Notes under the pieces: generated by a model
Databases searched by the model: none
What the model saw: only the letters and a program-made list of their open reading frames with translations
Told to the model about the DNA's origin: nothing
Part shown: positions 2,241 to 40,130 of the stretch, piece after piece
Numbering within the stretch: position 1 is the first letter of the stretch
Layout: the number at the start of each line of letters is the position of its first letter
Program-made: the position numbers and the translations under genes
Origin: a virus
Virus record (IMG/VR): IMGVR_UViG_3300042895_001827
Location: 1 to 40,370 of that record
DNA length: 40,370 bases
Strand: one strand, 5' to 3'

Positions 2241-2753
2241 ATGAGATTTCCTAAAAGCCAAATAAAAGAAAACCAATACACCTCTGGAGGTGAATTTATA
2301 AATCCTTTTACAAATAGTATTTATTCGGGATTTTACTGGGAAGCTAATGGGAGATATTTTATAGGAAAAACAGTAGACCTTAAATCTACAGAAATTAAAA
2401 AAATAACCCTAGGAGTATCAAAAATATTAAATGTATTTAATAGCTTACCTTCATCAGTTTATGGTGTATTAAGTAATAATTCAATTACATTTTTAGCTAA
2501 TAGTACAAGCACACCTGCTGGTATTCCTTCTAACTCTAATAAAGGAACAATTAGATATTTTGTTAAACAAACAAACTCTACCCCAGTATTAATTAGAGAA
2601 GTAAATCAAGATACATTTAAGCAAATTAAAAGCAATCCCATATATCAGACTATAGCTATAAAGCGAGAAACGATATATGCGGGAACAAATGAATTAGATA
2701 CAGCAGAAGCTATATTTCCTGGAATTAAAGGATTCTTGTCAAAAGAAATATAA
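2241..2753 (+). CDS. Small probable virion protein, function unknown
   Basis: 170 residues, ATG start one base after the stop of the hub/hydrolase gene, so the two are translationally close and probably co-transcribed. The N-terminal part carries TSGGEFINPFTNSIYSGFYW followed by RYFIGKT, a pattern I associate with small structural proteins of aquatic and Bacteroidota phages (a Gly-Gly-Glu-Phe strand, then a short Tyr/Phe-rich strand pair). No catalytic motif, membrane segment or signal peptide is visible. It could be a tail or neck component; position is the main argument. After its stop the DNA changes from virion genes to replication genes, with a promoter at 2748-2778 that starts inside its last codons. 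Confidence 0.5.
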   Translation: MRFPKSQIKENQYTSGGEFINPFTNSIYSGFYWEANGRYFIGKTVDLKSTEIKKITLGVSKILNVFNSLPSSVYGVLSNNSITFLANSTSTPAGIPSNSNKGTIRYFVKQTNSTPVLIREVNQDTFKQIKSNPIYQTIAIKRETIYAGTNELDTAEAIFPGIKGFLSKEI

Positions 2754-2778
2754 AGTCAAAATAAAGATTGTATATTTA
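2748..2778 (+). promoter_or_regulatory. Phage promoter P1 (polA-like gene)
   Basis: The upstream 14-mer ATATAAAGTCAAAA (2748-2761) is followed by 9 bases and the -7-like octamer TATATTTA (2771-2778). The CAAAA half and the spacing match the other sites in this window, but the TTTG/TTGG at the left end is missing. The octamer ends 22 bases before the ATG at 2801, so this transcript would have a short leader. The site overlaps the end of the preceding gene. Confidence 0.65.
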
Positions 2779-2800
2779 AAAAAATAAAGGTTATAAAAAT

Positions 2801-4096
2801 ATGTTTTACGTCATCGAACGAGAAAACCAATTAGAAAAATTAGGCCCATTTGGGGATTGTTTCATTGATTTTATACCACAAAACAATAATTTTCATCCTA
2901 AACTAACATCATTAAGCTTAATATACATTAGGCCGCTAAATGACCATAAAGGATATGTTTTGTGTTTAAATCATAGTGAATCATTTCCATTAGACCAACA
3001 ATTAGTATTTAATTGGCTCAACAACAACACACAAAAGTTATTTGTGCCTCAAAAGAAAGAGGCAATGTATCATTTTCCACACCATAGCAAACTATATGAT
3101 GTTAATTTTTTGCGCGAAATAAGCGAAGATAAGCTATCAAACAACAACTGCGTTACCTGGTATTATCAAAGATATCCTAGTGTATCTAACCTTAATGCGC
3201 TGATTCCTATTAGCAAGCATTATGAAAATGAGGAAAATTTATTTGAATTAGTACAACCAATTATTAATTCATACAATGCATCAGATAACGTGTATAAGTT
3301 CAACAATGAGCAAACAACACAAGTGTTCTGGGAATTAGAGCAAAACGGTATTAAATTAGATAAAAAATACTTTGCTGAATTCTATAACAACACCAAATAC
3401 CCAGAATTTAATGTCTTTAAAGGTAAAATATATACTCAATACAATTTATATACTACCACAGGACGACCATCAAATAAATTCAATAACATTAATTTTTCAG
3501 CATTAAATAAAACAAATGGCGAACGTGCAACATTCAAACCATCAAATGATTTATTTATTGAATTCGATTTTCAAGGTTACCACCCACGACTAATTAGTGA
3601 AAAAATAGGATTTACATTTCCTAAAGATAAAAACACATACGAATATTTAAGTGAATTGTTAGATGTGACAGCAGATGAAGCTAAGGAACTAACGTTTAAA
3701 CAATTATATGGAGGTGTTTGGAAAGAATACATAGATAAACCTTTCTTTAGGGAAGTAGCAATGCTTACTGATGATTTATGGGACACATACCAATATGGTG
3801 GATTTGTAAAAACTACAAATAAAGTATTCCGTACTGAATCAACAATGACATCATCTAAATTGCTAAGTTATATAATCCAAAGTCGTGAAACATCACGTAA
3901 TATTGAGCTATTAGTGCCTATATTAGAATATCTTAAAGATAAAAAAACAAAATTAGTATTGTACACATATGATGCGTTTCTAATTGATTTCGCACGTGAA
4001 GATGGTAGAGAAATGCTAATCAAAATACAACAACTACTACAATACCCAGTAAACATTAAAAAAGGTAAAGACTACCACGAATTAGAAAAAATATAA
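2801..4096 (+). CDS. Short DNA polymerase I (family A)-like protein
   Basis: 431 residues. The C-terminal half carries the family A polymerase signatures in order: TGRPSN (about 220-225, like TGRLSS), motif A EFDFQGYHPRLI (254-265, Asp256 in place of the DYSQIELR Asp), motif B EAKELTFKQLYGG (293-305, Lys295), a conserved Gln near 360, and motif C LYTYDAFLID (387-396, Asp391, where most family members have HDE). Both metal-binding Asp residues remain, so catalysis is possible. The first 170 residues show no clear exonuclease or flap-nuclease motifs, and the protein is far shorter than Pol I (over 900) or T7 polymerase (about 700). It comes before the gp32-uvsX-rnh-helicase block, whereas the replicative family B enzyme is at 22907. 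A repair, priming or gap-filling role is inference. Confidence 0.75.
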   Translation: MFYVIERENQLEKLGPFGDCFIDFIPQNNNFHPKLTSLSLIYIRPLNDHKGYVLCLNHSESFPLDQQLVFNWLNNNTQKLFVPQKKEAMYHFPHHSKLYDVNFLREISEDKLSNNNCVTWYYQRYPSVSNLNALIPISKHYENEENLFELVQPIINSYNASDNVYKFNNEQTTQVFWELEQNGIKLDKKYFAEFYNNTKYPEFNVFKGKIYTQYNLYTTTGRPSNKFNNINFSALNKTNGERATFKPSNDLFIEFDFQGYHPRLISEKIGFTFPKDKNTYEYLSELLDVTADEAKELTFKQLYGGVWKEYIDKPFFREVAMLTDDLWDTYQYGGFVKTTNKVFRTESTMTSSKLLSYIIQSRETSRNIELLVPILEYLKDKKTKLVLYTYDAFLIDFAREDGREMLIKIQQLLQYPVNIKKGKDYHELEKI

Positions 4097-4098
4097 TC

Positions 4099-4563: not shown

Positions 4564-4580
4564 ATACTATTTCTTTAAGT

Positions 4581-4611
4581 TTGGCTTGTCAAAGCAAAAA
4601 TCATACATTTA
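4581..4611 (+). promoter_or_regulatory. Phage promoter P2 (gp32 and following genes)
   Basis: TTGGCTTGTCAAAG (4581-4594), 9 bases, then TACATTTA (4604-4611). It fits the common geometry of the window: TTGG at the -33 position, CAAA at positions 10-13 of the block, and TAnnTTTA at -7. The octamer ends 27 bases before the gp32 ATG. It lies in the only gap of this block (4564-4638), as expected for strong gp32 expression. Confidence 0.75.
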
Positions 4612-4638
4612 AGAATTAAACAAATAAAGTTATATATT

Positions 4639-5481: not shown

Positions 5482-5483
5482 TC

Positions 5484-6581: not shown

Positions 6582-7593
6582 ATACTCAGACATATTATCT
6601 AGTATAAATAACACACCCCGTAATGCTCAAGATTCAATTTTAATAATTGATGGTTTAAATACATTCTTGAGAAGTTTTACAATGATTAACCACATTAATC
6701 CAGATGGAGCCCACATTGGTGGGCTCACTGGGTTTCTTAAATCATTAGGGTATGCTATACGTACAATAGATCCTACTAAAGTGGTCATCGTATTTGATGG
6801 TATTGGTGGTTCAAATAATAAGCGAAACTTATATCCTGACTATAAAGCAAATAGAAATAAAAGTCGAATGACTAATTATAATATATTTAGCAATAAGGAA
6901 GAAGAAGCAGAATCCATCAATAACCAAATGGGTAGATTAATCCAATATCTACAATGTTTACCTATCTCAATAATCTGTATAGATGGAATTGAGGCAGATG
7001 ATGTTATGGGATATCTAGCAGTTAAATTTGAAAAATTTCCAGTAACTAAACAAGTAACATTAATGTCGTCTGATAAAGACTTCTTACAGTTACTTAGCCC
7101 TAAAACCCAAGTATATTCACCTACAAAGAAAAAAATATATCAACCAAAAGATATATTAGAAGAATTTGGGGTTAGCCATTATAACTTTATTAACTATAAA
7201 ATGTTAATGGGAGATGCTTCGGATAATTTACCTGGTATATTAGGGTTAGGACCTAAAAAATTAATCAAATTATTTCCTAATCTGCTAGAAGATAGAAAAA
7301 TAGAATTAAATGAAATATTATCTTATTCTGCTGAAAAAGTAAATGAGCATGAATTATATGCTTCGGTTATAGAAAGAAGTCATCAATTGAATATTAATAG
7401 ACAATTAATGGATTTACAAACTATACCTCTATCAGAAGGAAATCAAGATGAGATTAAAGCTAGTTTTAACAATTCTTATAGTTTAAATAAGCATGTATTT
7501 ATGCAGATGTATTTAGCTGACAAATTAGGTGAATCAATTCCAAACACAACAAATTGGATTAATCAAATTTTTGGAGGGCTAGACAGCTTTTAG
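6571..7593 (+). CDS. rnh: 5'-3' exonuclease / T4 RNase H-like flap nuclease
   Basis: 340 residues. It removes RNA primers and flaps from lagging-strand fragments. The acidic metal-binding positions of the family are visible: LIIDGLNTF, VVIVFDGIGG, IDGIEADDVMGYL, MSSDKDFLQL and the helix-hairpin region MLMGDASDNLPGILGLG. It is somewhat longer than T4 RNase H (305). Its ATG at 6571 overlaps the last 11 bases of uvsX, which implies coupled translation. The helicase gene follows under a separate promoter that begins in the last codons of this gene (7571). Confidence 0.88.
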   Translation: MKNKYSDILSSINNTPRNAQDSILIIDGLNTFLRSFTMINHINPDGAHIGGLTGFLKSLGYAIRTIDPTKVVIVFDGIGGSNNKRNLYPDYKANRNKSRMTNYNIFSNKEEEAESINNQMGRLIQYLQCLPISIICIDGIEADDVMGYLAVKFEKFPVTKQVTLMSSDKDFLQLLSPKTQVYSPTKKKIYQPKDILEEFGVSHYNFINYKMLMGDASDNLPGILGLGPKKLIKLFPNLLEDRKIELNEILSYSAEKVNEHELYASVIERSHQLNINRQLMDLQTIPLSEGNQDEIKASFNNSYSLNKHVFMQMYLADKLGESIPNTTNWINQIFGGLDSF

Positions 7594-7601
7594 TATTTTT
7601 A
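7571..7601 (+). promoter_or_regulatory. Phage promoter P3 (helicase)
   Basis: TTGGAGGGCTAGAC (7571-7584), 9 bases, then TATTTTTA (7594-7601). The TTGG and the octamer have the standard spacing, but the CAAAA half is not present. The octamer ends 15 bases before the ATG at 7617. The site overlaps the 3' end of the RNase H gene. Confidence 0.55.
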
Positions 7602-11163: not shown

Positions 11164-11501
11164 TAGAAAATATACATTACTATAAAGAAGGAGATAGGGT
11201 GGTTTTTACCACCCTTTTTCACATTCAACGTGGTCAATGTTGTGGGAATGGGTGTAGGAACTGTCCTTATATCCCAAAACACTTAAAAGGAAATTTGGAA
11301 CTTAAAACAGAATTTATTAAATTTAAACATATGAATTTAGAAGAGTTAAATAAGATGAAAAAAGAGGCTGAAGAGCTAAGTAATATGAAAGACCAAATGT
11401 CTGCCGTTGAACTACAAGCTAAAGCCTTAGAACTAACCAATAGATTAGAAGAAATATTGGGTTCTATAATTAAGGTTCCTAAAGAAGAAGATAATGAGTA
11501 A
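11148..11501 (+). CDS. DUF5522-type small Cys-rich protein with C-terminal helical extension
   Basis: The frame is open upstream to a TTG at 11133, but ATG 11148 gives a protein that begins a few residues before the conserved part, so I prefer it (117 residues); either start overlaps the end of nrdJ. The N-terminal half, VVFTTLFHIQRGQCCGNGCR then NCPY, matches the DUF5522 family of small Bacteroidota proteins (CCGxGCRxCPY), whose function I do not know; the Cys set suggests metal binding. From about 11331 a charged helical region (MNLEELNKMKKEAEEL) follows, with an in-frame ATG at 11332, so this part may be a fusion or be made separately. The first codons contain a terminator-like hairpin (11196-11219). 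Confidence 0.7.
   Translation: MRSSLVENIHYYKEGDRVVFTTLFHIQRGQCCGNGCRNCPYIPKHLKGNLELKTEFIKFKHMNLEELNKMKKEAEELSNMKDQMSAVELQAKALELTNRLEEILGSIIKVPKEEDNE
11196..11219 (+). terminator. Intrinsic terminator-like hairpin after nrdJ, inside the DUF5522 frame
   Basis: The stem AGGGTGGT (11196-11203) pairs perfectly with ACCACCCT (11208-11215) around a TTTT loop and is followed by more T. It is 32 bases after the nrdJ stop, a typical terminator position, but it also encodes the RVVFTTLF residues of the DUF5522-type protein. It may end or attenuate transcription before that gene. Confidence 0.65.
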
Positions 11502-12027
11502 AAAACGTTTATACGTTAGTTCTGAAGATGCTTGGATGTATATTCAAGCACCAAAAAACATGGGACATACTGCCACTCACTATACTAGAGTACCAAGCAT
11601 TGATCCTAAATACCCAAGTGGAGACGGATGGGAAGATGTAATTTATCTTCATGAACCAATACTAGACCCTTCAGGTGCTATCCGTAAACCAGAATGGATA
11701 TATGTTTTAGTTAATGTATCTATGCATGGTATGGTTAAAGTAGGAATGACTACTAATACAGTAGAAGAACGTGCTAAAGAAATCAATGCTGCTACTGGCG
11801 TTCCTACACCTTGGATACCAGTATTTAAATTTAAATGTTATGGCTCTCGTTATTTAGAGAAAGAAGTTCATGATCATTTACATCAATATAGAGTAGCAAA
11901 CAATAGAGAAATGTTCAGTACAGATGCTATGACAGCTCAAAAAGTAATAGAAAAACTAGGCGTTAACTATGCTAATGCATTGTATGTAGCTACTGAATTA
12001 AAACAAGATTTGGAAAATCAAAATTAA
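11494..12027 (+). CDS. T5orf172/GIY-YIG-like domain protein
   Basis: 177 residues; the ATG overlaps the stop of the DUF5522-type gene by 8 bases. The central part WIYVLVNVSMHGMVKVGMTT, then VEERAKEIN, and later YLEKEVHDHLHQYRV with NREMF, fits the T5orf172/MUG113 branch of the GIY-YIG superfamily (YVL, VKVGxT, an Arg and a late Glu). Members are often phage proteins next to DNA-processing genes; some are nucleases, but activity for this branch is not established here. The N-terminal 65 residues (MYIQAPKNMGHTATHY) are outside the domain and not recognised. The queD promoter starts inside its final codons. Confidence 0.7.
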   Translation: MSKKRLYVSSEDAWMYIQAPKNMGHTATHYTRVPSIDPKYPSGDGWEDVIYLHEPILDPSGAIRKPEWIYVLVNVSMHGMVKVGMTTNTVEERAKEINAATGVPTPWIPVFKFKCYGSRYLEKEVHDHLHQYRVANNREMFSTDAMTAQKVIEKLGVNYANALYVATELKQDLENQN

Positions 12028-12040
12028 TATTTTATATTTA
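12010..12040 (+). promoter_or_regulatory. Phage promoter P4 (queD, DNA-modification genes)
   Basis: TTGGAAAATCAAAA (12010-12023), 9 bases, TATATTTA (12033-12040): a full match to the window consensus. The octamer ends 7 bases before the queD ATG at 12048, so the transcript leader would be only a few bases. The site overlaps the end of the T5orf172 gene. Confidence 0.8.
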
Positions 12041-12047
12041 AAACAAT

Positions 12048-12527
12048 ATGGCAAGATACATCTCAACAAAAACATTCGACAACTATTCAGTTGCGATTAG
12101 ACAATGGAAAGCACAGCATTCACACTGTCAATTATTACATGGTTATGGAATCTACTTCAAAGTATGGTTCGCATCTAACCAACCAGATCTAGACAAGCAA
12201 TTAGATGAAATGAATTGGATTGTTGACTTTGGAGGATTTAAAACTAAACCAGTAGGAAACGGATTAAAAGATTGGATGGACCATATGTGGGATCATACAG
12301 TGTTAATTGAAAAAGACGATCCATATGCTGATATATTTGTACAAATGGAACAAATGGGATTAGCTAAAGTTCATTTAATGGATAAAATGGGCTGTGAGTC
12401 ATTAGCTAAATTAGTATCAGATAAATTTAACGAAGTATTATCTAATACAGATGGTGCTAGATGTAAAGTAATTAAAGTAGAGTGTTTCGAACACGGTAAA
12501 AATTCATCAATATTTGAAGCAGAATAA
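12048..12527 (+). CDS. queD: 6-carboxy-5,6,7,8-tetrahydropterin synthase (QueD-like)
   Basis: 159 residues. QueD turns dihydroneopterin triphosphate into 6-carboxytetrahydropterin in preQ0 synthesis. Visible elements are HSHCQLLHGY (Cys27 as catalytic Cys, His31 as zinc ligand), WIVDFGGFK (beta-strand Asp), MWDHTVLIEKDDP (the Asp-His pair) and CFEHGKNS (late Glu). The common HGH motif reads HGY here (Tyr33), so one zinc ligand must be replaced; the RQWKAxxSHC lead-in suggests a QueD branch different from the E. coli type. FolE (17246), QueE and QueC complete the pathway in the same region. It is first in the block under the 12010 promoter. Confidence 0.85.
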   Translation: MARYISTKTFDNYSVAIRQWKAQHSHCQLLHGYGIYFKVWFASNQPDLDKQLDEMNWIVDFGGFKTKPVGNGLKDWMDHMWDHTVLIEKDDPYADIFVQMEQMGLAKVHLMDKMGCESLAKLVSDKFNEVLSNTDGARCKVIKVECFEHGKNSSIFEAE

Positions 12528-12528
12528 T

Positions 12529-13326
12529 ATGAAAATTAGTCATGAAGTTCCTTTATCATTATTAAAATCAAGTAGATTATTTAATGATTACGATTATTGT
12601 TTACCTCACTTATTAGATAAACATGAAGAATACAAAGAATATTTTTTAGAAGGACAAACATTGCCTCAAAAGCGTTTTGTTATCATGGATAATGGTTTGT
12701 TTGAAGGTGTAACTCACACTGAAAAAGATTTAATTGAAAAAATTAATCTAATTAAACCAGATATCTTTATTGTTCCTGATGAATGGAATGACACAGCACT
12801 TACCCACAGAAATGCTAAGTATTGGATGAATGTAATTAAAGAACAACTACCTAAAGAAACTGAATTGATGGTAGTAATGCAAGGGCATACTTTAGGTGAT
12901 TTTATGAATCTATACAACCAATGTGCTGCTTTAGGATATACACACTTTGCATTTAATCATTCATCTATATATTATCAACATGATGGATACCATCCAAATC
13001 TATTAGTAAATCAAATGATGAATAGAATTTATATAATTTCAAGACTATATAAAGAAAAAATCATTAAAGATAGCCATTATGTCCACTTATTAGGAGCATC
13101 ATTACCACAAGAATTCATGTATTATAGAGAACCAGAATTTGCATTTATTAAATCTGTAGATACATCATCTCCAATTATAAATGGTATTTTAGAGATACCA
13201 TATGAAGATTATGGTTTATTAACTAAACCTAAAAACAAAATTGAAGAATTTATGGAAGGTGATTGGTCAAAGCAAATTGGACATTTAACTCACAATATTC
13301 ACAAATTTAAAAAATTTATAAAATAA
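12529..13326 (+). CDS. dpdA: DpdA-like DNA 7-deazaguanine transglycosylase (TGT family)
   Basis: 265 residues from ATG 12529; an in-frame TTG at 12514 overlaps queD and is less likely. It resembles tRNA-guanine transglycosylases in motif order: IMDNGLFEG (Asp54, the DSGGFQ place), VPDEWND, MVVMQGHTLGDF (the VQGG place), HLLGASLPQEF (the LMGVG place) and IKSVDTSSPI (Asp211, the nucleophile place). It is shorter than the roughly 370-residue bacterial Tgt and lacks its zinc Cys cluster. Such short TGT relatives beside preQ0 genes in phages are the DpdA enzymes that exchange guanine in DNA for preQ0 or a derivative. Substrate is inferred from the neighbours queD, queC and queE. It sits one base after queD. 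Confidence 0.78.
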   Translation: MKISHEVPLSLLKSSRLFNDYDYCLPHLLDKHEEYKEYFLEGQTLPQKRFVIMDNGLFEGVTHTEKDLIEKINLIKPDIFIVPDEWNDTALTHRNAKYWMNVIKEQLPKETELMVVMQGHTLGDFMNLYNQCAALGYTHFAFNHSSIYYQHDGYHPNLLVNQMMNRIYIISRLYKEKIIKDSHYVHLLGASLPQEFMYYREPEFAFIKSVDTSSPIINGILEIPYEDYGLLTKPKNKIEEFMEGDWSKQIGHLTHNIHKFKKFIK

Positions 13327-13339
13327 ATTAAACAACAAC

Positions 13340-13732
13340 ATGGCACAAACACTCACATCATGTACTACAACATTGGGACATTCAGGTACAACAACAGGAA
13401 CAGCGTACTTTCAACCAAGTACAGGAACAATATCATCAGGTACATATATTAGTGGTGGTGATATTTCTAGTTTTACAGTACCAAATTTAACAACATCAAA
13501 TTTAACAATTTCATCAATTAACCAAAACGCAATTATGCAAAACAAAGTAGCAGTGTTCAAAGTAACACGTAATGACAAAAACGAAATTACATCAACTGAA
13601 TTCATTAAAGAAATGTGGATTCAAACTAAAAACAATCAATCAGTAGAATTTGAAGTAGCTAGAGATAAAGACTTAGCTAAGTATAAAGCTGAAGATTTAT
13701 CTATTAGAACAATCTATACAGTAACATTCTAA
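13340..13732 (+). CDS. Hypothetical protein, Thr/Ser/Gly-rich N-terminus
   Basis: 130 residues; ATG 13 bases after the dpdA-like gene. The first 60 residues are rich in Thr, Ser and Gly (TLGHSGTTTGTAYFQPSTGT), as in beta-rich virion proteins. The second half, VAVFKVTRNDKNEITSTEF and then EFEVARDKDLAKY, looks like a small alpha/beta domain. I do not recognise a family. It could be a small structural or decoration protein, but it stands within the DNA-modification genes rather than among virion genes. There is no signal peptide or membrane segment. Confidence 0.55.
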   Translation: MAQTLTSCTTTLGHSGTTTGTAYFQPSTGTISSGTYISGGDISSFTVPNLTTSNLTISSINQNAIMQNKVAVFKVTRNDKNEITSTEFIKEMWIQTKNNQSVEFEVARDKDLAKYKAEDLSIRTIYTVTF

Positions 13733-13733
13733 A

Positions 13734-14396
13734 ATGAAAAAAATCGTATTCTGTTTACCTGGAAGAGAGTTTAGTGGTAGATTTCTATCATGTTGGACTG
13801 AGTTAGTATACGCTTGCTTATCGCAAGGTATTCAACCTATAATGTCTCAACAATACTCACCCTTACTATATTACGTTCGTAATATGTGCTTAGGAGGAGA
13901 TAACTTAGCAGGTATCAAACAGGTACCATTCCAAGGTAAACTAGATTATGATTATATAATGTGGATTGATTCAGACATTGTATTCACACCCGATCAATTC
14001 TTTAAGTTAATAGACAACGATAAAGATATTTCATCAGGTTTGTATATGATGGCTGACAATACCCATTATGCTACAGTTGAAAATTGGGATGATGAGTTCT
14101 TTCAAAAGAATGGACATATGCAATTCGTAAACAGAGAGATACTATCTAAGAAGAAAGATTTATTTAAAGCTGACTATACAGGATTTGGATGGATACTAAT
14201 GAAGAAAGGCGTATTTGAATCTTTAGAATATCCTTGGTTTCAACCAATGTGGACTGAATATGAAACAGATGGAAAGATTATTAGAGATTTCTCAATGGAA
14301 GACGTAGCCTTCTGTAGAATGATTAAAGAAAAAGGCTTTGATGTCTGGATTGATCCTACAATAGTGGTAGGGCACGAAAAAATGGTTATATTATAA
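13734..14396 (+). CDS. Glycosyltransferase, GT-A fold
   Basis: 220 residues, ATG one base after the preceding stop. It shows the nucleotide-sugar binding strand with a DxD motif, IMWIDSDIVFTPDQ (about 78-91), a middle FGWILMKKGVFE segment and the acceptor-side EDVAFCRMIKEKGFDVWIDP with HEK near the end, which is common in phage-encoded GT2-like transferases. The enzyme should move a sugar from a nucleotide donor, cytoplasmic since no membrane segment is seen. The acceptor is unknown: the position between dpdA and queC permits DNA-base glycosylation, but virion glycosylation is just as possible. Confidence 0.78.
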   Translation: MKKIVFCLPGREFSGRFLSCWTELVYACLSQGIQPIMSQQYSPLLYYVRNMCLGGDNLAGIKQVPFQGKLDYDYIMWIDSDIVFTPDQFFKLIDNDKDISSGLYMMADNTHYATVENWDDEFFQKNGHMQFVNREILSKKKDLFKADYTGFGWILMKKGVFESLEYPWFQPMWTEYETDGKIIRDFSMEDVAFCRMIKEKGFDVWIDPTIVVGHEKMVIL

Positions 14397-14405
14397 AAAA
14401 AACAA

Positions 14406-14588
14406 ATGGCAAAATTACAAAAAATTGAAACTACTCATTACATTTATGAGTACGAATTAAGTGAAGATGAATTAGCACTATATATTAGTGATCCTGATAC
14501 ATTTTGGGAAGATTTTAGCGATGAATGGAATGATCCATATATGGATGTAGATTCAACTCAACCAGAAATTAACTTTTTAGAAGAATAA
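14406..14588 (+). CDS. Small acidic protein
   Basis: 60 residues, ATG at 14406, between a glycosyltransferase and queC with 9 and 5 base gaps. More than a quarter of residues are Asp or Glu, concentrated in YELSEDELALYISDPDTFWE and the following DFSDEWNDP. Tight packing and no competing frame support it as a real gene. It is unrecognised; a strongly acidic small phage protein can mimic DNA or bind a basic partner, but that is speculation from composition only. Confidence 0.6.
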   Translation: MAKLQKIETTHYIYEYELSEDELALYISDPDTFWEDFSDEWNDPYMDVDSTQPEINFLEE

Positions 14589-14593
14589 ATAAA

Positions 14594-15412
14594 ATGAAAA
14601 AACAAGCAGTATTATCACTAAGCGGAGGAATGGATAGCTCTAGCTTACTGCTTCATCTACTCGCCAATGGCTATGAAGTAACATCATTATCCTTTGACTA
14701 TGGTCAAAAACACAATGTCGAATTAGAACGAGCTAAAGATTTAGTTAGCTATTTAAATTCACAATGTACAGAAAATAACTGTTATGGTGGATGTGAAGTT
14801 AAACATCAAGTAATTACTTTAGATGGTTTATCTCAATTATTAAATTCATCATTAGTATCTGGTGGTTCAGAAGTACCTGAAGGTCATTATGCTGAAGAAA
14901 ATATGAAAGCAACTGTAGTGCCTAATCGTAATAAAATATTTAGTTCAATTATTCAAGCAGTTGCATTATCAGTTGCTGAACAAAAGAATACTGAATGTGT
15001 AATTGCTATGGGTATACACGCAGGTGACCATGCTATATATCCTGACTGTAGACAAGAGTTTCGTGATATCGATTATGAAGCGTTTAAAGCTGGTAATTGG
15101 GGTGCTGAGAAAGTAACATATTATACTCCGTATTTAGAAGGTGATAAATACACTATATTAGAGGATGGCGCTAAGTGTTGCAAAATACTAGGCCTTGATT
15201 TTAACGCAGTATATAGCCGAACTAATACGTCTTATAAGCCATACCCGTCAGGCAACTCAGATTATAAATCAGCATCATCAGTTGAACGTGTTGAAGCATT
15301 TATTAAATTAGGTCGCCCAGATCCAGTTCAATATGAAGACGAGACAGGTCTAGTGACATGGGAACACGTAGTAAATGAAGTAACTAAAGTATTAGAAAGT
15401 CATGAAAAATAG
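14594..15412 (+). CDS. queC: 7-cyano-7-deazaguanine (preQ0) synthase QueC, zinc-site variant
   Basis: 272 residues. QueC converts 7-carboxy-7-deazaguanine to preQ0 with ATP and ammonia. The PP-loop SLSGGMDSSS (8-17), the SFDYGQKH strand, VPNRNKIF and AMGIHAGDHAIYPDCR agree with QueC. The C-terminal zinc site is gone: where the family has four Cys, this protein has Ser213, Asp223, Ser226 and Ser229 (TSYK ... SDYKSASSVERVEAF), while the flanking VERxEAF is kept. There is a Cys-rich insert near residues 58-67 (CTENNCYGGC). Activity is likely, given a complete pathway, but not certain. Its stop overlaps the start of the next small gene. Confidence 0.85.
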   Translation: MKKQAVLSLSGGMDSSSLLLHLLANGYEVTSLSFDYGQKHNVELERAKDLVSYLNSQCTENNCYGGCEVKHQVITLDGLSQLLNSSLVSGGSEVPEGHYAEENMKATVVPNRNKIFSSIIQAVALSVAEQKNTECVIAMGIHAGDHAIYPDCRQEFRDIDYEAFKAGNWGAEKVTYYTPYLEGDKYTILEDGAKCCKILGLDFNAVYSRTNTSYKPYPSGNSDYKSASSVERVEAFIKLGRPDPVQYEDETGLVTWEHVVNEVTKVLESHEK

Positions 15413-15620
15413 AAAACAACATAAAATGAATGTGGGAAAAGAATCACATAAGGAAATTGACTTTAATAAACTTCCTGATCCTAAATTACACCAACGTGTT
15501 AGTTTCTTTAAATCAGGAATTAGAATAGCAGGTTATATTACTTTACCTTTTAACTTAGCTATAGGAGCTATTATACTTGTATTAAGTGAGTTAATTGGTA
15601 TTATAGAAGAGTTAGTATAA
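15402..15620 (+). CDS. Small single-pass membrane protein
   Basis: 72 residues, starting inside the last codons of queC. The N-terminal half is basic and polar (MKNRKQHKMNVGKESHKE); the C-terminal half contains one hydrophobic stretch, about residues 43-66 (IAGYITLPFNLAIGAIILVL), followed by a short acidic end. I predict one membrane segment with the basic end in the cytoplasm. The family is unknown. Candidates are superinfection exclusion or a holin-like role, but one segment alone does not decide. A promoter for the next gene begins shortly after its stop. Confidence 0.6.
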   Translation: MKNRKQHKMNVGKESHKEIDFNKLPDPKLHQRVSFFKSGIRIAGYITLPFNLAIGAIILVLSELIGIIEELV

Positions 15621-15625
15621 TAAAT

Positions 15626-15656
15626 TTGGAAAGGCAAAAATAGTTTATTAAATTCA
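15626..15656 (+). promoter_or_regulatory. Phage promoter P5 (helix-turn-helix gene)
   Basis: TTGGAAAGGCAAAA (15626-15639), 9 bases, TAAATTCA (15649-15656). Both the TTGG and CAAAA elements are present and the spacing is exact. The octamer ends 24 bases before the ATG at 15681. Together with the terminator at 15898 it makes the helix-turn-helix gene a single-gene unit. Confidence 0.7.
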
Positions 15657-15680
15657 AACAACAAATAAAATAAAAAAGTT

Positions 15681-15887
15681 ATGAAATTAAATCGCACAGC
15701 AAAACAAGCATTCTACAGTGCTAGAAGAAGAGATGGTGATTCTGCTAGATTAGCAGAGATGAGTGGATACTCAACCTCTCACGTTACTAACGTTTTAAAT
15801 GGTCACCGTAATGTTACGGATACCTTAGCAAACGCAATGTATAACATTTCTAGACGTAGATTGAAAAACAGCCAAGTAGCTGCTTAA
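15681..15887 (+). CDS. Small helix-turn-helix DNA-binding protein
   Basis: 68 residues, very basic. RLAEMSGYSTSHVTNVLNGH (about 24-43) fits a Cro/XRE-type helix-turn-helix: helix, SGYS turn, recognition helix with SHVTNVLNG, and then the supporting helix VTDTLANAMYNI. The Arg-rich ends (SARRRDGD, ISRRRLKNS) could add DNA backbone contacts. It has its own promoter (15626) and terminator (15898), unlike the operonic neighbours, which fits a regulator or an abundant DNA-binding protein. The targets are unknown; possible ones are the phage promoters described here or host genes. Confidence 0.75.
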   Translation: MKLNRTAKQAFYSARRRDGDSARLAEMSGYSTSHVTNVLNGHRNVTDTLANAMYNISRRRLKNSQVAA

Positions 15888-15897
15888 GCAAAAACCC

Positions 15898-15932
15898 AAT
15901 ACCCTCTATTTTACATAGGGGGTATTTTCTAT
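15898..15932 (+). terminator. Intrinsic terminator after the helix-turn-helix gene
   Basis: AATACCCTCTAT (15898-15909) pairs with ATAGGGGGTATT (15915-15926) with one G-T pair around a TTTAC loop; T-rich DNA follows. It stands 11 bases after the stop at 15887 and before queE, so queE needs its own promoter or read-through; no phage-type promoter was seen between 15927 and 15953. Confidence 0.8.
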
Positions 15933-15953
15933 TTAAACAACAAACAATAAAAT

Positions 15954-16724
15954 ATGGAGCGCATATCTGATTACAATAAAAAAATTCAAGTAATTGAAAT
16001 TTATCCTTGTGTACAAAGCGAAGGCAGTAGACAAGGAAGACCTACAGTAGCTATTAGAACAACAGGCTGTACTCACAGATGTTGGTTTGGTGAAGGTGGA
16101 TGGTGTGATTCTTGGTACACAAGTATTCATCCTGAAAAAGGTAAATTTACATTTAATGACATCGTTAAAATGTATGATGAAAATCCTCACATTAAAGAAA
16201 TGATGTTAACAGGTGGTGCACCTACAATGCATCCAGTATTAGTAAACGAATTAACACATTTTGCAAATGAAAGAGGTATTCTCATCACTATGGAAACTGA
16301 AGGTAGTCACTTTGTTGAGACTGATTTTCCTATCGGTCTCTTATCTATTAGTCCTAAGTTTAGCAATAGCGTTCCTAGGGTTGGGATTCTTACTCCACTT
16401 GGGAAAGAAGTGGATCAAAAGTTTGTGGACCAACATAACAAATACCGTCTTAACATTCCTGAAATTAAAAAAATGATCGAATTTCATTCTGATTATCATT
16501 TAAAACCAGTATGGGATGGTACAGAAGAAAACTTAGCTGAAATTGAAGCATTTAGAGTTGAATTAGGTATCCCTAAAAACAAAACATGGATTATGCCCGC
16601 TGGTGATACAGCAGAAGAATTAACTAGAATGTATCCAATTTCAATTGAAATGTGTACTAGAGAAGGTTATAACTGGACTGGTAGAGATCATATTATAGCT
16701 TACGGACAAAAGAGAGGAGTGTAG
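15954..16724 (+). CDS. queE: 7-carboxy-7-deazaguanine synthase QueE (radical SAM), unusual cluster spacing
   Basis: 256 residues. QueE rearranges 6-carboxytetrahydropterin to 7-carboxy-7-deazaguanine. The N-terminal EIYPCVQSEGSRQGRPTVAI is the family's substrate loop, followed by RTTGCTHRCWFGEGGWCDSW. The cluster cysteines are Cys39, Cys43 and Cys51: the first spacing is CX3C as usual, but the second is CX7C instead of CX2C because of a GEGGW insert. MMLTGGAPTMHP is the SAM-binding GGE-like motif, and METEGS and SISPKFSN match later QueE blocks. It lies after a terminator, opening the queE-hpt-folE-dut block with a gap of 2 bases to hpt. Confidence 0.88.
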   Translation: MERISDYNKKIQVIEIYPCVQSEGSRQGRPTVAIRTTGCTHRCWFGEGGWCDSWYTSIHPEKGKFTFNDIVKMYDENPHIKEMMLTGGAPTMHPVLVNELTHFANERGILITMETEGSHFVETDFPIGLLSISPKFSNSVPRVGILTPLGKEVDQKFVDQHNKYRLNIPEIKKMIEFHSDYHLKPVWDGTEENLAEIEAFRVELGIPKNKTWIMPAGDTAEELTRMYPISIEMCTREGYNWTGRDHIIAYGQKRGV

Positions 16725-16726
16725 TT

Positions 16727-17236
16727 ATGAGAATACTATTTGGAACATCAGCATTAGATACTGCTGTAAAAAAAATAGCCAAACATATTACAGAACAAAA
16801 ACACCCATCACCACCAGTAATGATCTGTGTTTTAAATGGAGCATTTATGTTCTTTACTGATTTAGTTAAGGAAATAAAAATGGATTGTGAAATCGATTTT
16901 ATTAGAGTTAAATCATATGAGGGTAGAGAACAGTATGATATTAAAATACTTAAAGATATTGAATCAAATATTGATGGTAAAAATATCTACATTATAGATG
17001 ATATTCTAGATTCAGGCAATACAATGAAGGCGCTTATTAAGCATTTATCTCATAGACACAAACCACGTTCAATCACACCTATTGTATTGTTTAAACGCTA
17101 TGATAATGAATGGCCTGTAGCGCATGGTATTGAATTAAAAGATGAAACATGGATCCATGGTTATGGATTAGACAATGAAAAAGGTTTAGGAAGAAATCTT
17201 CCTTATATACTTGGAGATTTAACAGAAGTTGAGTAA
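16727..17236 (+). CDS. hpt: Hypoxanthine/guanine phosphoribosyltransferase-like
   Basis: 169 residues, the usual HPRT length. It joins a purine base to PRPP. Visible are the VLNGAFMFFTDL loop, DFIRVKSYEG (the flexible active-site loop region), and the PRPP signature NIYIIDDILDSGNTM (about 85-99), then a late ETWIHGYGLDNE strand that closes on the base. The ATG is 2 bases after queE and the gene comes just before folE. It may feed GTP, the substrate of FolE, by salvage of guanine freed when host DNA breaks down or when DpdA exchanges bases; this is inference. Another 6-oxopurine or a deazaguanine as substrate cannot be excluded. Confidence 0.85.
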   Translation: MRILFGTSALDTAVKKIAKHITEQKHPSPPVMICVLNGAFMFFTDLVKEIKMDCEIDFIRVKSYEGREQYDIKILKDIESNIDGKNIYIIDDILDSGNTMKALIKHLSHRHKPRSITPIVLFKRYDNEWPVAHGIELKDETWIHGYGLDNEKGLGRNLPYILGDLTEVE

Positions 17237-17241
17237 ATTTA
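17211..17241 (+). promoter_or_regulatory. Phage promoter P10 (folE), leaderless type
   Basis: TTGGAGATTTAACA (17211-17224), 9 bases, TAAATTTA (17234-17241), then 4 bases and the folE ATG at 17246. TTGG and the octamer have the exact common spacing; CAAAA is absent, as in P3. The site lies in the end of hpt. By the usual start-point distance the transcript would begin about at the ATG. Confidence 0.6.
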
Positions 17242-17245
17242 AATT

Positions 17246-17968
17246 ATGGAAAATAAAAGACGTAAAACAGCTGATATTGAAAAATTAGAGACAGCACAAG
17301 CAGGTTTTGCAAATGGTATTTCATTGCAATTAAAAGACCTAATTAATAAAGGACAACATCGTTCTTTAAATGACAAAGAAAAGAAAAAAATTATTACTAA
17401 CGCTGAAAAAGCATATGGTAAATTTTTAACTGCATTAGGTGTAGATTGGGAAAATGACCCAAACAGTATGGAAACACCTCGTCGTGTATCTAAGGCATAT
17501 GTAAATGACTTATGGAGAGGTAGATATGAAATACCAACTGAAATTACAGCATTCCCTAGTGATGGATACAATGGTATTGTTTTAGAACGAGACATTCCAG
17601 TAACAAGTATGTGTTCTCATCATCACCAAGCTATCTTAGGTAATGTTCATATTGCTTATATTCCTGGAGTTGATGGTAAAGTAATTGGTTTAAGTAAATT
17701 AAATCGTATTGTAGAACACTTTGGACGTAGAGGTGCAATTCAAGAACAATTAACAGTAGCTATTCACAATGCAATTAATGAAATTTGTGAAGGTAATATT
17801 GGAGTGATGGTTGTAGTTCATGCAGGTCACCAATGTGTATCTTGCAGAGGCGTTAAACATCAAGGCGCTAGTATGGTTACTAGTGAAGTATCAGGTGTGT
17901 TTGCTGACCACACAAGAACAGCTAAAATTGAAGTATTAGAAATGTTAAAATTAAAAATATGTTGCTAA
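17246..17968 (+). CDS. folE: GTP cyclohydrolase I
   Basis: 240 residues. FolE opens the guanine ring of GTP to make dihydroneopterin triphosphate, the first step to preQ0. The zinc and catalytic residues are visible: TSMCSHHHQAILGNVHIAY (Cys-His pair), HFGRRGAIQEQLT and HQCVSCRGVKHQGASMVT (second zinc Cys and catalytic His). The N-terminal 60 residues are basic and polar. A phage copy bypasses host control of the folate enzyme. It is followed by the dUTPase-family gene with a 10-base overlap. A promoter at 17211-17241 can drive it apart from queE. Confidence 0.93.
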   Translation: MENKRRKTADIEKLETAQAGFANGISLQLKDLINKGQHRSLNDKEKKKIITNAEKAYGKFLTALGVDWENDPNSMETPRRVSKAYVNDLWRGRYEIPTEITAFPSDGYNGIVLERDIPVTSMCSHHHQAILGNVHIAYIPGVDGKVIGLSKLNRIVEHFGRRGAIQEQLTVAIHNAINEICEGNIGVMVVVHAGHQCVSCRGVKHQGASMVTSEVSGVFADHTRTAKIEVLEMLKLKICC

Positions 17969-18456: not shown

Positions 18457-18477
18457 TTTTTATTGTTTTAGTTTATA

Positions 18478-18506
18478 GGGTTCGGGATTCTTCCCGAGCC
18501 CTTTTT
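18478..18506 (+). terminator. Intrinsic terminator after the folE-dut block
   Basis: GGGTTCGGG (18478-18486) pairs with CCCGAGCCC (18493-18501), with one T-G pair, extended by an A-T pair; a TTTTT run follows (18502-18506). It is the strongest hairpin in the window and separates nucleotide genes from the tail-fibre genes. Confidence 0.88.
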
Positions 18507-18511
18507 GCTAT

Positions 18512-18531
18512 TTTACATATTTATATGTAAA
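18512..18531. repeat. Perfect inverted repeat before the tail-fibre genes
   Basis: TTTACATAT (18512-18520), TT, ATATGTAAA (18523-18531). Two perfect 9-base arms lie between the terminator and the ATG at 18542. No T-run follows, so it does not look like a terminator; it could be an operator or a late-promoter element. It contains TATTTATA, also found before groES and before the gene at 32506. Confidence 0.55.
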
Positions 18532-18541
18532 TAATCAATAT

Positions 18542-22871: not shown

Positions 22872-22902
22872 TAGGAAAGTCAAAATTATTTTATTATCTT
22901 TA
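22872..22902 (+). promoter_or_regulatory. Phage promoter P6 (DNA polymerase), leaderless type
   Basis: TAGGAAAGTCAAAA (22872-22885), 9 bases, TATCTTTA (22895-22902), 4 bases, ATG at 22907. The CAAAA block and spacing are exact; the left end is TAGG rather than TTGG. There is no room for a leader between the octamer and the start codon. Confidence 0.78.
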
Positions 22903-25490: not shown

Positions 25491-25521
25491 TTTGAAAAGC
25501 AAAACAAATTAATTATATTTA
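25491..25521 (+). promoter_or_regulatory. Phage promoter P7 (sliding clamp), leaderless type
   Basis: TTTGAAAAGCAAAA (25491-25504), 9 bases, TATATTTA (25514-25521), 4 bases, ATG at 25526. It is one of the two fullest matches in the window, with the small dyad TTTG-N5-CAAA in the upstream block. Confidence 0.85.
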
Positions 25522-26251: not shown

Positions 26252-26290
26252 AAATTATATATTTATATACAACACAAATTAATTAACGTT

Positions 26291-28242: not shown

Positions 28243-28857
28243 ATGATTGAAAATGTACATTACATTTGGATAGGGAATAACAATATACCTAATAAGTATT
28301 TACTTAACTTTAAAAAGTGTGTTGATTTAAATAGACAGTTTTCATTCACTATATGGAAAAATGAAGATTGTTTACAATTAATAAGAGAATACGATTTAGA
28401 AGATATATTTACTTCCCTATCCTTTATATGTAGGTGTAATTTATTAAAATATCTTATACTCCATAAATTTGGAGGAATATACACTGATTTTGATATTACA
28501 TGGAAACAACCATTTGCTAAAATAATAAATGATTTTAATTTTCCTGCTGTAGATTTAATCTTAACATCTACAAATGAGAATACATTAATGGATGATCCAT
28601 TTATAGTAAGTAAACCCAACATATTAGGAAATTGTATTGCATATTGCAAAAGAAGAACCAAATTAAAATATGATGGTGAAATATACGAACGAACAAAACA
28701 ATTAGTTACACATAAATTAGAACCATTTGGCCCTTTTGGATTAACAGAATGGTTAGAGTTTGATAAAGTTAACTATAGTCATTTCCCTCAGGCAATATTA
28801 TTAGATAATAAAGGTTTTTTTGGAGTCCACGAACAAAGAAGCATTTGGAAGTTTTGA
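28243..28857 (+). CDS. Glycosyltransferase, GT32-like (DxD sugar transferase)
   Basis: 204 residues, ATG one base after the groEL stop. It starts ENVHYIWIGNNNIPNKYLLN, the typical first strand of the OCH1/GT32 family (IHYIWFGxxxxP), with FTIWKNEDC next, then LLKYLILHKFGGIYTDFDIT carrying the DxD (Asp-Phe-Asp) that binds metal and nucleotide sugar. It is cytoplasmic, with no membrane segment. The acceptor is unknown. It is isolated from the main glycan cluster, between chaperonin and clamp-loader genes, so it may have entered separately. Confidence 0.8.
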   Translation: MIENVHYIWIGNNNIPNKYLLNFKKCVDLNRQFSFTIWKNEDCLQLIREYDLEDIFTSLSFICRCNLLKYLILHKFGGIYTDFDITWKQPFAKIINDFNFPAVDLILTSTNENTLMDDPFIVSKPNILGNCIAYCKRRTKLKYDGEIYERTKQLVTHKLEPFGPFGLTEWLEFDKVNYSHFPQAILLDNKGFFGVHEQRSIWKF

Positions 28858-28883
28858 AAGGCAAAATAAAAGTTATATATTCA
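28853..28883 (+). promoter_or_regulatory. Phage promoter P8 (clamp loader), leaderless type
   Basis: TTTGAAAGGCAAAA (28853-28866), 9 bases, TATATTCA (28876-28883), 4 bases, ATG at 28888. The block starts in the last codons of the glycosyltransferase gene. Both upstream elements match the consensus. Confidence 0.83.
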
Positions 28884-32448: not shown

Positions 32449-32505
32449 TGGCTTTGTAGATTTATATATATTTATATACAATAAGTAATATATTAAAACA
32501 AAATT

Positions 32506-36935: not shown

Positions 36936-36936
36936 T

Positions 36937-37857: not shown

Positions 37858-37861
37858 CATT

Positions 37862-38743: not shown

Positions 38744-39618
38744 TGTTTAAATTTCACTCTAGGTTTGATCCAATATTTCATTTTTTACAAGAACAATATA
38801 AAGATAAACCTTTTACAATATGGCATGAAACATTTCCTACTAGTATTGAGCAATTACAAGAAAATCCTTATAATTTTTTAATATTAGCAGAACCAAATGA
38901 ATTTTTTGGTTTACATGATGCTGCTATCCATTATAAAGATAATTTTACTTGTATTTTAACTTGGAATGATTTAGTATTAAATAATTGTCATAATGCTGTT
39001 AGATTTACATTTAATGGAAGAGTATTAGATGATAATTTTATAGAGCAAATTAAAGATAAAGAAAAAACATTTGAAGTATCTTTTTTATGTGGTGATAAAA
39101 CATTAGTAGAAGGTCATCAACTTAGACATAAAGTATATACTGTAGGTGACAATATTACTATACCTAAAAAATGGTTTAAAGTATTAGATGATTATGACCA
39201 TGAAAATGGAGTTCGTCCTGGATATGGTACCTATGGTAAAGATTTATCTTTTATACCTGAAGGAGTAGATATTGTTGGATATGGTAAACGAGTATTATAT
39301 GAATCAATGTTTAATTTAGTAATTGAAAACGTTAAACATAACAATTGGTATAATAAAATAGGCGATACATTCCTAACCAAATCTATCCCAGTATATTGGG
39401 GTTGTCCTAATTTAAGTGAATTTGGGTATGATGAAAGAGGTATTATTAGATTCACTAATGAACAAGATTTACCTTATATCCTTAACTCATTAACACCAGA
39501 AGTGTATGAGCAAATGAAACCATACGTTGATTACAACTATGAAGTAGCTAAATTAGATCACGTTGAAACTAGAGCAACCCAATTTTTTGATAGTTTTATT
39601 CAATTAAATAACATATGA
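38743..39618 (+). CDS. Glycosyltransferase, GT10 (fucosyltransferase)-like
   Basis: 291 residues. The C-terminal segment MFNLVIENVKHNNWYNKIGD followed by TFLTKSIPVYWGCPNLSEF matches the alpha-1,3-fucosyltransferase motif (FxLxxENxxxxxYxTEKixDxxxxxxxPIYxG), with the Glu and Lys that hold GDP-fucose. The N-terminal half (TIWHETFPTS, FLILAEPNEFF) would carry the acceptor side. It is shorter than many family members (about 300-400), but the key region is complete. It overlaps the preceding gene and is overlapped by the epimerase-like gene. Confidence 0.8.
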   Translation: MFKFHSRFDPIFHFLQEQYKDKPFTIWHETFPTSIEQLQENPYNFLILAEPNEFFGLHDAAIHYKDNFTCILTWNDLVLNNCHNAVRFTFNGRVLDDNFIEQIKDKEKTFEVSFLCGDKTLVEGHQLRHKVYTVGDNITIPKKWFKVLDDYDHENGVRPGYGTYGKDLSFIPEGVDIVGYGKRVLYESMFNLVIENVKHNNWYNKIGDTFLTKSIPVYWGCPNLSEFGYDERGIIRFTNEQDLPYILNSLTPEVYEQMKPYVDYNYEVAKLDHVETRATQFFDSFIQLNNI

Positions 39619-40097
39619 TATTCCCTGAAGTAAAAATATTCCAACCAGATGTGTACACTGATTTTAGAGGTGATTTATGGACACTATGGAATAAAGATAA
39701 ATTTGAACCTCAATTAGATTTCAATCACGATAAAGTATCTACATCAAGAAAACACGTATTAAGAGGAATTCACGGTGATAGTAAATCATGGAAATTAATT
39801 ACTTGTTTATACGGTGAAATGTATTTTGTAGTAGTAGATAATAGACCTGAGTCTCTAAATTATTTAAAATGGGACTCATTGATTCTAGATGATAGAACAA
39901 GAAAATCAGTATTAGTACCTCCTCAATTTGGGAATGCATTTTTAGTACTTAGTGAAAATTCAGTATTCCATTATAAATGGGCATACCCAGGAGGATATCC
40001 AGATGTTGAAGATCAATTCACATTAAAATGGAATGATAGTAGATTAAATATTGATTGGCCTATTAGTAATCCACTATTACAGAAAAGAGATAAATAA
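39615..40097 (+). CDS. dTDP-4-dehydrorhamnose 3,5-epimerase-like cupin (RmlC family)
   Basis: 160 residues. It has the RmlC pattern: DVYTDFRGDLWTLW, then DKVSTSRKHVLRGIHGD (the RGIH with active-site His), CLYGEMYFVVVDNRPESLNY (the Asp of the dyad and beta strands), VLVPPQFGNAFLVLSE, and the end LTLKWND-like FTLKWNDSRLNIDWP. Such enzymes epimerise a 4-keto nucleotide sugar, giving deoxy-L-sugars for the nearby transferases. It is shorter than typical RmlC (about 180), and could be a related sugar isomerase. It overlaps the GT10 stop by 4 bases. Confidence 0.85.
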   Translation: MIFPEVKIFQPDVYTDFRGDLWTLWNKDKFEPQLDFNHDKVSTSRKHVLRGIHGDSKSWKLITCLYGEMYFVVVDNRPESLNYLKWDSLILDDRTRKSVLVPPQFGNAFLVLSENSVFHYKWAYPGGYPDVEDQFTLKWNDSRLNIDWPISNPLLQKRDK

Positions 40098-40099
40098 AC

Positions 40100-40130
40100 T
40101 TTGAAAATCAAAATAAATTACTTATATTTA
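40100..40130 (+). promoter_or_regulatory. Phage promoter P9 (PfpI-like gene), leaderless type
   Basis: TTTGAAAATCAAAA (40100-40113), 9 bases, TATATTTA (40123-40130), 5 bases, ATG at 40136. It is the best overall match with P7. It follows the epimerase-like gene by 2 bases, so it starts a new transcript after the glycan cluster. Confidence 0.85.

Follow-up and report, generated by a model that had tools for sequence, protein, structure and literature searches.

Ten short sites of a single layout lie in front of genes in the viral DNA sequence IMGVR_UViG_3300042895_001827 and raise the question of whether they are promoters, which genes they serve and what reads them. The window, that is, the whole stretch of 40,370 bases, is an IMG/VR virus record on which a simple gene call places 49 genes, all on the plus strand. 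In a preliminary description of this DNA, the sites were proposed to form a phage promoter family of fixed geometry with an extra element in the spacer. This proposal is supported by the restriction of the layout to one strand and to places before genes, and by a matrix derived from relatives only, which puts exactly these sites at ranks one to ten. The sites are probably pre-replicative promoters of a T4-like Bacteroidota phage, which contain a spacer box peculiar to the phage lineage.

Each site was described as a 14-base block, which begins with TTTG or TTGG and usually carries CAAA(A/G) at positions 10 to 14, followed after exactly nine bases by an octamer TAnnTTnA. All ten octamers lie at the positions reported and fit TAnnTTnA, and CAAA(A/G) is indeed present in eight sites, the exceptions being those with octamers at 7594 and 17234. 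TTTG or TTGG at the block start holds for eight sites, but not for those at 2771 (ATAT) and 22895 (TAGG). The sites, referred to as class A, are all found on the plus strand, and their ranks and scores come from the relatives-only matrix described below. The first, at 2748-2778 (octamer 2771; rank 8, 19.0 bits), has CAAAA but no TTTG and ends 22 nucleotides (nt) before the ATG of gene 2801, whose product of 431 amino acids has no family match. The next two precede the gene at 4639 for the gp32-like single-stranded DNA-binding protein (SSB) (4581-4611, octamer 4604; 27 nt to the ATG; rank 1, 25.8 bits) and the gp41-like dnaB gene at 7617 (7571-7601, octamer 7594; 15 nt; rank 9, 14.7 bits). They are followed by the sites before the QueD gene at 12048 (12010-12040, octamer 12033; 7 nt; rank 5, 22.2 bits), which partly overlaps the end of the preceding gene, before a small gene with similarity to helix-turn-helix (HTH) proteins at 15681 (15626-15656, octamer 15649; 24 nt; rank 3, 23.6 bits) and before the FolE gene at 17246 (17211-17241, octamer 17234; 4 nt; rank 10, 14.1 bits). 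Three sites belong to the replisome genes for the gp43-like DNA polymerase B (PolB) at 22907 (22872-22902, octamer 22895; rank 4, 22.6 bits), the gp45-like sliding clamp at 25526 (25491-25521, octamer 25514; rank 7, 19.9 bits) and the gp44-like clamp loader at 28888 (28853-28883, octamer 28876; rank 2, 24.2 bits), each with a gap of 4 nt. The last one (40100-40130, octamer 40123; 5 nt; rank 6, 20.6 bits) precedes gene 40136, which is cut by the window end. The pattern CAAA[AG]-N9-TAnnTTnA occurs eight times on the plus strand of the window, each time before a gene, and not once on the minus strand. The looser pattern TTTG/TTGG-N19-TAnnTTnA yields ten hits on the plus strand, two of which are located within genes (11318 and 24586), and three on the minus strand, all within genes. 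The full layout is thus found before genes and on a single strand, and is not equally frequent inside genes or on the other strand.

When a self-matrix built from the ten window sites was scored leave-one-out, six sites reached 23-30 bits and 2771 a fair 14.4, whereas 17234 (10.3), 4604 (7.3) and 7594 (-2.9) were weak; the place within a gene at 11318 reached 18.3 bits. Due to these low scores, four sites are insecure on the evidence of the window alone. The second matrix was trained on 256 octamer-anchored sites of six related phage records (G001, G003, G004, G007, G014 and G016), with the window excluded and without selection for the box. With this matrix, the first ten ranks of all plus-strand positions are exactly the ten sites (25.8 to 14.1 bits); ranks 11 to 20 all lie within genes and score at most 13.4 bits, and the maximum of the minus strand is 11.1 bits. 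In 20 second-order Markov sequences, a mean of 0.25 sites and at most one site reached 14 bits or more. A comparison by position matrix, as suggested in the preliminary description, therefore singles out the ten sites; however, the training set contains orthologues of the window sites, so that the test is held-out but not independent in ancestry. The weakest site of the self-matrix, 7594, is supported by the dnaB orthologues, since TTTGG..TAAATTTA is present in four of the five listed (G001, G004, G014 and G016, but not the cultured Flavobacterium phage immuto).

The genes behind the sites indicate when such promoters would be used. In the window, class A precedes the genes for PolB, clamp, clamp loader, SSB, DnaB, QueD and FolE and three others. 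Classes were assigned to orthologues from six relatives, collected with two query sets: 18 pre-replicative genes, among them the HTH gene and the unknown gene 2801, and 19 structural genes of immuto, 16 of which have hits in these relatives. Among 96 pre-replicative orthologues, 31 are preceded by class A and one by class B, a separate motif with the sequence TATTTATA, usually ATATTTATA; 64 have no call. Structural orthologues show the opposite pattern, with 24 class B calls, two with both classes, none with class A alone and 60 without a call (of 86). The sole pre-replicative class B call, at the SSB gene of G001, also fits class A, as TTTGG, CCAAAA and TATATTTATA occur together. TATTTATA occurs 3.9-5.7 times per kilobase (kb) before genes (3-31 hits) versus 0.03-0.11 in coding DNA in six records; its excess before genes extends to all 16 records profiled, with 2.2-11.2 versus 0.03-0.16 per kb in genes. 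Class B sites of immuto precede the genes for TerL, portal, tail sheath, tube, hub, tape measure, tail spike and others, but not the major capsid gene. Since class A is found at pre-replicative and class B at structural genes, the ten sites are regarded as early/middle promoters, and class A is almost certainly the promoter family of pre-replicative genes. In G001, numerous small genes in the presumed early or host-takeover region carry the class A box as well, which suggests that class A is used for both early and middle genes.

The preliminary description had further likened the sites to Bacteroidota housekeeping promoters (-33 TTTG, -7 TAnnTTTG), which are recognized by the sigma factor ABfr. 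According to an excerpt of PMC6847099, the -7 element of Flavobacterium johnsoniae is TAHHTTTG at -12 to -5, in which G-5 is nearly invariant; its -33 motif is weak, RNA starts 4 or 5 nt past the -7 element and 87% of the predicted transcripts have leaders of more than 10 nt. The frame of this comparison holds, as the TAnnTT core is shared, TTTG or TTGG is present in eight of the ten sites and the window octamers lack G at positions 3 and 4. The octamer, however, is not the host consensus: its last base is A in all ten sites, where F. johnsoniae has G-5, the phage sites possess an added spacer box, and they are often probably leaderless. TAnnTTTG is not clearly enriched upstream of genes in five large records (0.00-1.06 per kb versus 0.49-0.83 in coding DNA), with three upstream hits (3.9 per kb) in the short window, and TAnnTTTA reaches 7.5-13 per kb upstream.

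Octamer-anchored profiles, in which TAnnTTTA was fixed, were calculated from intergenic sites of G001 (59), G004 (41), G014 (48) and G016 (43). They reveal TTGG at -23 to -20 and G-K-C-A-A-A-R at -16 to -10 relative to the octamer start. These elements stand out best in G001 and are weak in G016, whereas the profile of coding octamers is flat. In G001, no upstream base is stronger than the G at -16 (0.99 bit), which precedes K-C-A-A-A-R and whose mirror position is not conserved. The extra part had been described as forming a small TTTG-N5-CAAA dyad in the best sites; this dyad was rejected as a conserved unit because its symmetry is broken by the strongest base of the spacer. As judged from the profiles, the spacer element is mainly an asymmetric box, GKCAAAR, at -28 to -22 of the putative promoter. 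G.CA[AG] at -16 is present at 115 of 488 intergenic octamers versus 36 of 2865 coding ones, a count that covers the window, four genomes and 56 loci, with five duplicate loci omitted.

The box is specific to one clade. G[GT]CA[AG][AG] at -16 is found at 119 of 281 sites in G001, G003, G004, G007, G010, G014 and G016, and at two of 212 in eight other records. Other relatives have elements of their own: TGACC at -18 occurs at 17 of 31 sites in G013, 2 of 17 in G018 and 5 of 16 in G019 (0 of 439 in the remainder, including the window), and TTTC[CT] at -9 at 28 of 38 sites in G012 (7 of 465 in the remaining records). G012 (L207-L213) thus possesses a strong spacer box TTTCY near the octamer, and G013 (L221-L226) has TGACC 13 base pairs (bp) upstream of it. 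G017 shows a weaker CC at -15 (15 of 48 sites), and none of the three boxes is found at the fixed positions in G015, G011 and immuto; in immuto and part of G015, TTC(G) adjoins the octamer instead. A search of viral contigs for the strict layout returned seven stretches, all of which carry genes related to this phage family, if only distantly in L106 and L108. In a collection with one genome per species (84,980 species), only two stretches were found. These, L103 and L104, were rejected as evidence for a host, as neither belongs to this phage family by gene content (no hit in one case, one protein at 35-38% in the other); L103 was used solely to choose the family of a flavobacterial metagenome-assembled genome, from which 60 genomes were taken. 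In these 60 genomes, box plus octamer occurs 217 times versus 421 for the reversed control and is hence rarer.

These counts bear on the possibility that the primary sigma factor of the host uses the sites as ordinary promoters, in which case the box would reflect a preference of the host RNA polymerase or of a host regulator and the clades would differ by host. The frame and the missing G at octamer positions 3 and 4 of the ten window sites, which resemble TAHHTTTG of F. johnsoniae, are in line with this, as is the same box at promoters of the presumed early region. However, box plus octamer is not over-represented in the 60 flavobacterial-family genomes, which may not cover the true host lineage, the strict layout is found in just two stretches across the species genomes, and A replaces G-5 in the phages, among them one known to infect Flavobacterium, with no clear enrichment of TAnnTTTG. 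Host-sigma promoters of this kind are therefore rather unlikely. The clade pattern and the genome counts speak for a phage-side cause rather than a general host element, although the true host may lie outside the genomes searched.

The position of the octamer relative to the start codon is often constrained. Among 115 boxed sites, the octamer ends exactly 4 nt before the ATG in 42 and 3 or 5 nt before it in three, while distances of 12-30 nt make up a second, broad group; among 373 unboxed octamers, 49 lie at 4 nt, 20 at 5 nt and 17 at 6 nt. In upstream regions that contain an octamer, the distance is exactly 4 nt at 20 of 29 PolB, 14 of 26 clamp and 14 of 16 clamp loader genes, and 3-5 nt at 23 of 29, 14 of 26 and 15 of 16, respectively. 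No octamer is present upstream of 10 of 39 PolB, 19 of 45 clamp and 17 of 33 clamp loader genes, often because the gene closely follows another gene. In the window, the gap is 4 nt at FolE, PolB, clamp and clamp loader, and 5, 7, 15, 22, 24 or 27 nt elsewhere. With the spacing of F. johnsoniae, a gap of 4 nt would place the RNA start at, or within one base of, the A of the ATG, and the spacing makes leaderless mRNAs likely at these sites. In other bacteria, TA-like signals around 10-12 bp before the start codon are taken to mark leaderless genes, as stated in an excerpt of PMC3160421.

In some relatives, such promoters are combined with hairpins. Nineteen of 88 non-redundant boxed sites contain a hairpin with a stem of at least 5 bp, versus 1.4 expected from base shuffles, and in 16 of the 19 the loop overlaps the box at -16 to -11, while the stem sequences differ. 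Hairpins are also found at 36 of 299 unboxed octamer sites, including class B (2.8 expected), 22 of which are followed by a T-rich stretch; for the boxed sites, this is the case for six of 19. It could be argued that the sites act at the RNA level, i.e. that a hairpin terminates the upstream transcript, or directs its processing, immediately ahead of the next start codon, and that they are not promoters. The excess of hairpins and the position of the loops over the box would fit this idea, but 69 of the 88 boxed sites have no hairpin, the spacing and sequence of the octamer are fixed either way, and the T-rich stretch is mostly missing, which makes it scarcely credible. Under the promoter interpretation, the hairpins are interpreted as terminators accommodated within the spacer, where the box stays at the place that the promoter requires; this applies less well to hairpins without a T-rich stretch. 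In G001, near-identical hairpin promoters, each followed by a T-rich stretch and TATCTTTA, are located near 100298, 110530 and 157763. The hairpins read GGATC-GTCAA-GATCC in two cases and GGGTC-GTCAA-GACCC in one, so that the third stem differs by a matched pair change, as if promoter cassettes had spread within the genome. PeSL cassettes of T4-type phages, attributed to Arbiol and colleagues in 2010, reportedly also join a promoter with a stem-loop in short intergenic regions. The hairpin described here, in contrast, lies within the promoter spacer with its loop on the box. By eye, intergenic inverted repeats followed by T-rich stretches, which resemble intrinsic terminators, can be seen in the window at 15888-15953 and 18457-18541.

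The combination of an additional box with a downstream -10 element of host type is reminiscent of the middle promoters of T4, which depend on sigma appropriation by MotA and AsiA. The T4 middle promoter has a MotA box, WWWTGCTTtA, centred at -30 and 12 ± 1 bp from the -10 element (excerpt of PMC2988021). Both systems serve replication genes of T4-like phages; class A is found at 31 of the 32 pre-replicative orthologues with a call. In contrast to T4, the phage box is GKCAAAR and is separated by 9 bp from the octamer, many sites retain a -33 element, the box is also present at presumed early genes, and MotA and AsiA were not found in the scans made. Neither protein is among the Pfam families listed (25 of 27, 21 of 21 and 25 of 41) for 132 G001 proteins of 75-260 amino acids. 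A phage factor bound to the site, considered possible in the preliminary description, would fit the clade-specificity of the box and its lack of over-representation in the 60 flavobacterial-family genomes. Such a factor is plausible, and it seems about as likely as not that the box is read by one specific to this phage lineage. Among the 244 genes of G001, 80 are present in all six genomes with the box that were compared, and five of these, including the HTH gene, have no counterpart in G011, G012, G015 and immuto. The reader may be among the other four, of which the starts of the sequences were inspected.

According to the model proposed here, the promoter would consist of a core TAHnTTTA at -12 to -5, in many cases joined by TTGG or TTTG around -35, and RNA would start 4-5 nt after the octamer, giving leaderless transcripts of the genes for PolB, clamp, clamp loader and FolE. 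A factor made or modified by the phage would read GKCAAAR and thereby steer the host RNA polymerase to phage genes, as in the T4 middle mode; the likeness is meant to be functional, and homology to T4 is not claimed. The hairpin that encloses the box in some lineages may, in addition, terminate the upstream transcript. It is tempting to speculate, albeit with more doubt than confidence, that the phages use a lineage-private promoter code: each clade would have exchanged the sequence and position of its box (GKCAAAR, TGACC, TTTCY or none), leaving the -10 octamer and the late promoter unchanged, with a fast-changing factor of its own doing the job of MotA and with leaderless mRNAs for the replisome.

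Several observations weigh against this model. The small protein of 68 amino acids encoded at 15681-15887 on the plus strand, behind site 15649, has a sub-threshold match to HTH_3 and is present in all six box genomes examined and in 15 of 22 records, being absent from G011, G012, G015, G017, G018, G019 and immuto, several of which are fragments. Its distribution made it the best candidate, but it was rejected as the likely reader of the box because recognition helix and box do not change together: the protein is also found in G013, which has the TGACC box, and helix 3 is of two types among genomes with the same box. The MotA profile PF09114 matched none of 20 records, but was silent in all controls as well. 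If the reader is made after infection, it would come too late for the presumed early genes that carry the box, unless it is packaged or these genes are delayed. The elements themselves are variable, since only five of the ten window sites match G[GT]CA[AG] at -16 in full, three further sites have CAAA with A at -16, and the remaining two lack CAAA. TTTG or TTGG near -23 ranges from 7 of 34 sites in G003 to 25 of 47 in G001 among the five largest site sets of the box clade and is far from universal. Most orthologues (124 of 182) have no promoter call; these include the genes for major capsid, sheath and tube of all six relatives, for which no class B site was called. Finally, the host of the window phage, probably a flavobacterium or a near relative, is only inferred, namely from immuto, which infects Flavobacterium and has a similar gene order.

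The late promoter of T4 and cyanophages has the consensus TATAAATA. This sequence occurs 0-1.4 times per kb upstream of genes (0-7 hits), which in five of six records slightly exceeds its frequency in coding DNA. Class B resembles these promoters in being a separate, short, -10-like motif at structural genes, but the motif is TATTTATA rather than TATAAATA. In the window, ATATTTATA is located at 18517-18525 on the plus strand before gene 18542 (292 amino acids, no PHROG match); further plus-strand class B motifs lie at 26259-26267 before groES (26291) and at 32468-32476 before gene 32506, a place that is conserved in many relatives including immuto.

A candidate for the late sigma factor emerged from a search with a profile of gp55, the top hit of which was a minus-strand open reading frame of G001 (E 0.009) that was taken as chance. 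The second hit, immuto 78174 (E 0.088), led to a conserved sigma-like family with members in G001 (125653-126354; L069:5653-6354), G004, G014, G016 and immuto (L100:28174-28872); the G016 copy contains an insertion inside the sigma-like part. Of the 600 pattern-matched viral-contig stretches listed, 587 encode a relative of the protein. Pfam Sigma70_r2 matched two of four members scanned below the cut-off (E 0.002-0.003), and hhalign against gp55 gave a probability of 64% with five sequences and 15% with forty, so that the family is not convincingly matched by the gp55 profile. The predicted structure has a mean pLDDT of 77 and a pTM of 0.53. In a VIA comparison, residues 14-117 or so resembled domain 2 of many sigma factors (Z 5.9-7.9, root-mean-square deviation (rmsd) 2.5-4.6); other rows were three integrative models (Z 6.3-8.6, rmsd around 20), a synthase (6.2) and further structures at or below 4.4. 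The top row (Z 8.6) was one of the integrative models, with an rmsd of 21, and was not counted. As a Z below 8, or below about 13 for helical models, can reflect a common arrangement, the sigma fold is suggestive, not final. Foldseek gave no match at E ≤0.001, with a 14-3-3 protein first (E 1.0) and sigma factors at E 1.9 to 4.9, and sequence searches of the PDB with the protein returned no sigma factor. Based on the structural model, the protein is a candidate late sigma factor with a probable sigma domain-2 fold, a further likeness to gp55.

This raises the alternative that the sigma-like protein of the phage reads both classes, given that TATATTTA and ATATTTATA share the core ATATTTA. ATATTTA is among the most over-represented 7-mers upstream of genes, and the protein with its probable sigma domain-2 fold is kept in all five phages named above. 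Nevertheless, class A octamers vary at positions 3 and 4 and have upstream elements, whereas class B is rigid, the gene classes are separate, and the sigma factor would have to be made or packaged before it could act on early genes. A common reader of both classes is thus very unlikely.

Control of transcription in T4-like phages is known mainly from hosts such as E. coli and cyanobacteria. As far as titles and abstract openings show, the open-access literature contains no description of the promoters reported here; the asymmetric clade-specific box, the 4-nt distance between octamer and ATG, the hairpins around the box in some relatives, the A in place of G-5 and the candidate late sigma factor appear to be new. 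For a widespread group of phages, probably of Bacteroidota, the sites provide a map of early/middle and late promoters that is open to testing, and they predict leaderless replisome mRNAs in a phylum without Shine-Dalgarno sequences. As the promoter element varies by clade, the search for its reader becomes a tractable comparative problem.

By its gene content, the window is part of a T4-like phage to which T4 itself is only distant kin. PHROG matches comprise a T4-type replication set of SSB, UvsX, an exonuclease, DnaB, ribonucleotide reductase, PolB, sliding clamp and clamp loaders, in addition to QueC, QueD, QueE, FolE and GroEL. The window polymerase matched 61 viral loci at identities between 43% and 100%, and contigs that hold such loci are in some cases 160-172 kb long; no genome encoding it was found in a genome search. 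Much the same gene order is present in the cultured phage immuto, whose host is Flavobacterium sp. LMO8: SSB, recombinase, exonuclease, DnaB and Nrd are followed by Que genes, FolE, GroES/EL and glycosyltransferases, in a slightly different order from the window. The polymerase of immuto belongs to family A, unlike PolB of the window. The genes for QueD, QueC, QueE and FolE at 12048-17968, to which the annotation of immuto adds DpdA and QueF, suggest that the phage DNA carries 7-deazaguanine modifications. In L107 (2732-6030), the polymerase gene is interrupted, and the gap contains a relative of G001 gene 93692; in L041 and L046, the polymerase match stops at residue 562. These interruptions are possibly due to a mobile intron or an intein.

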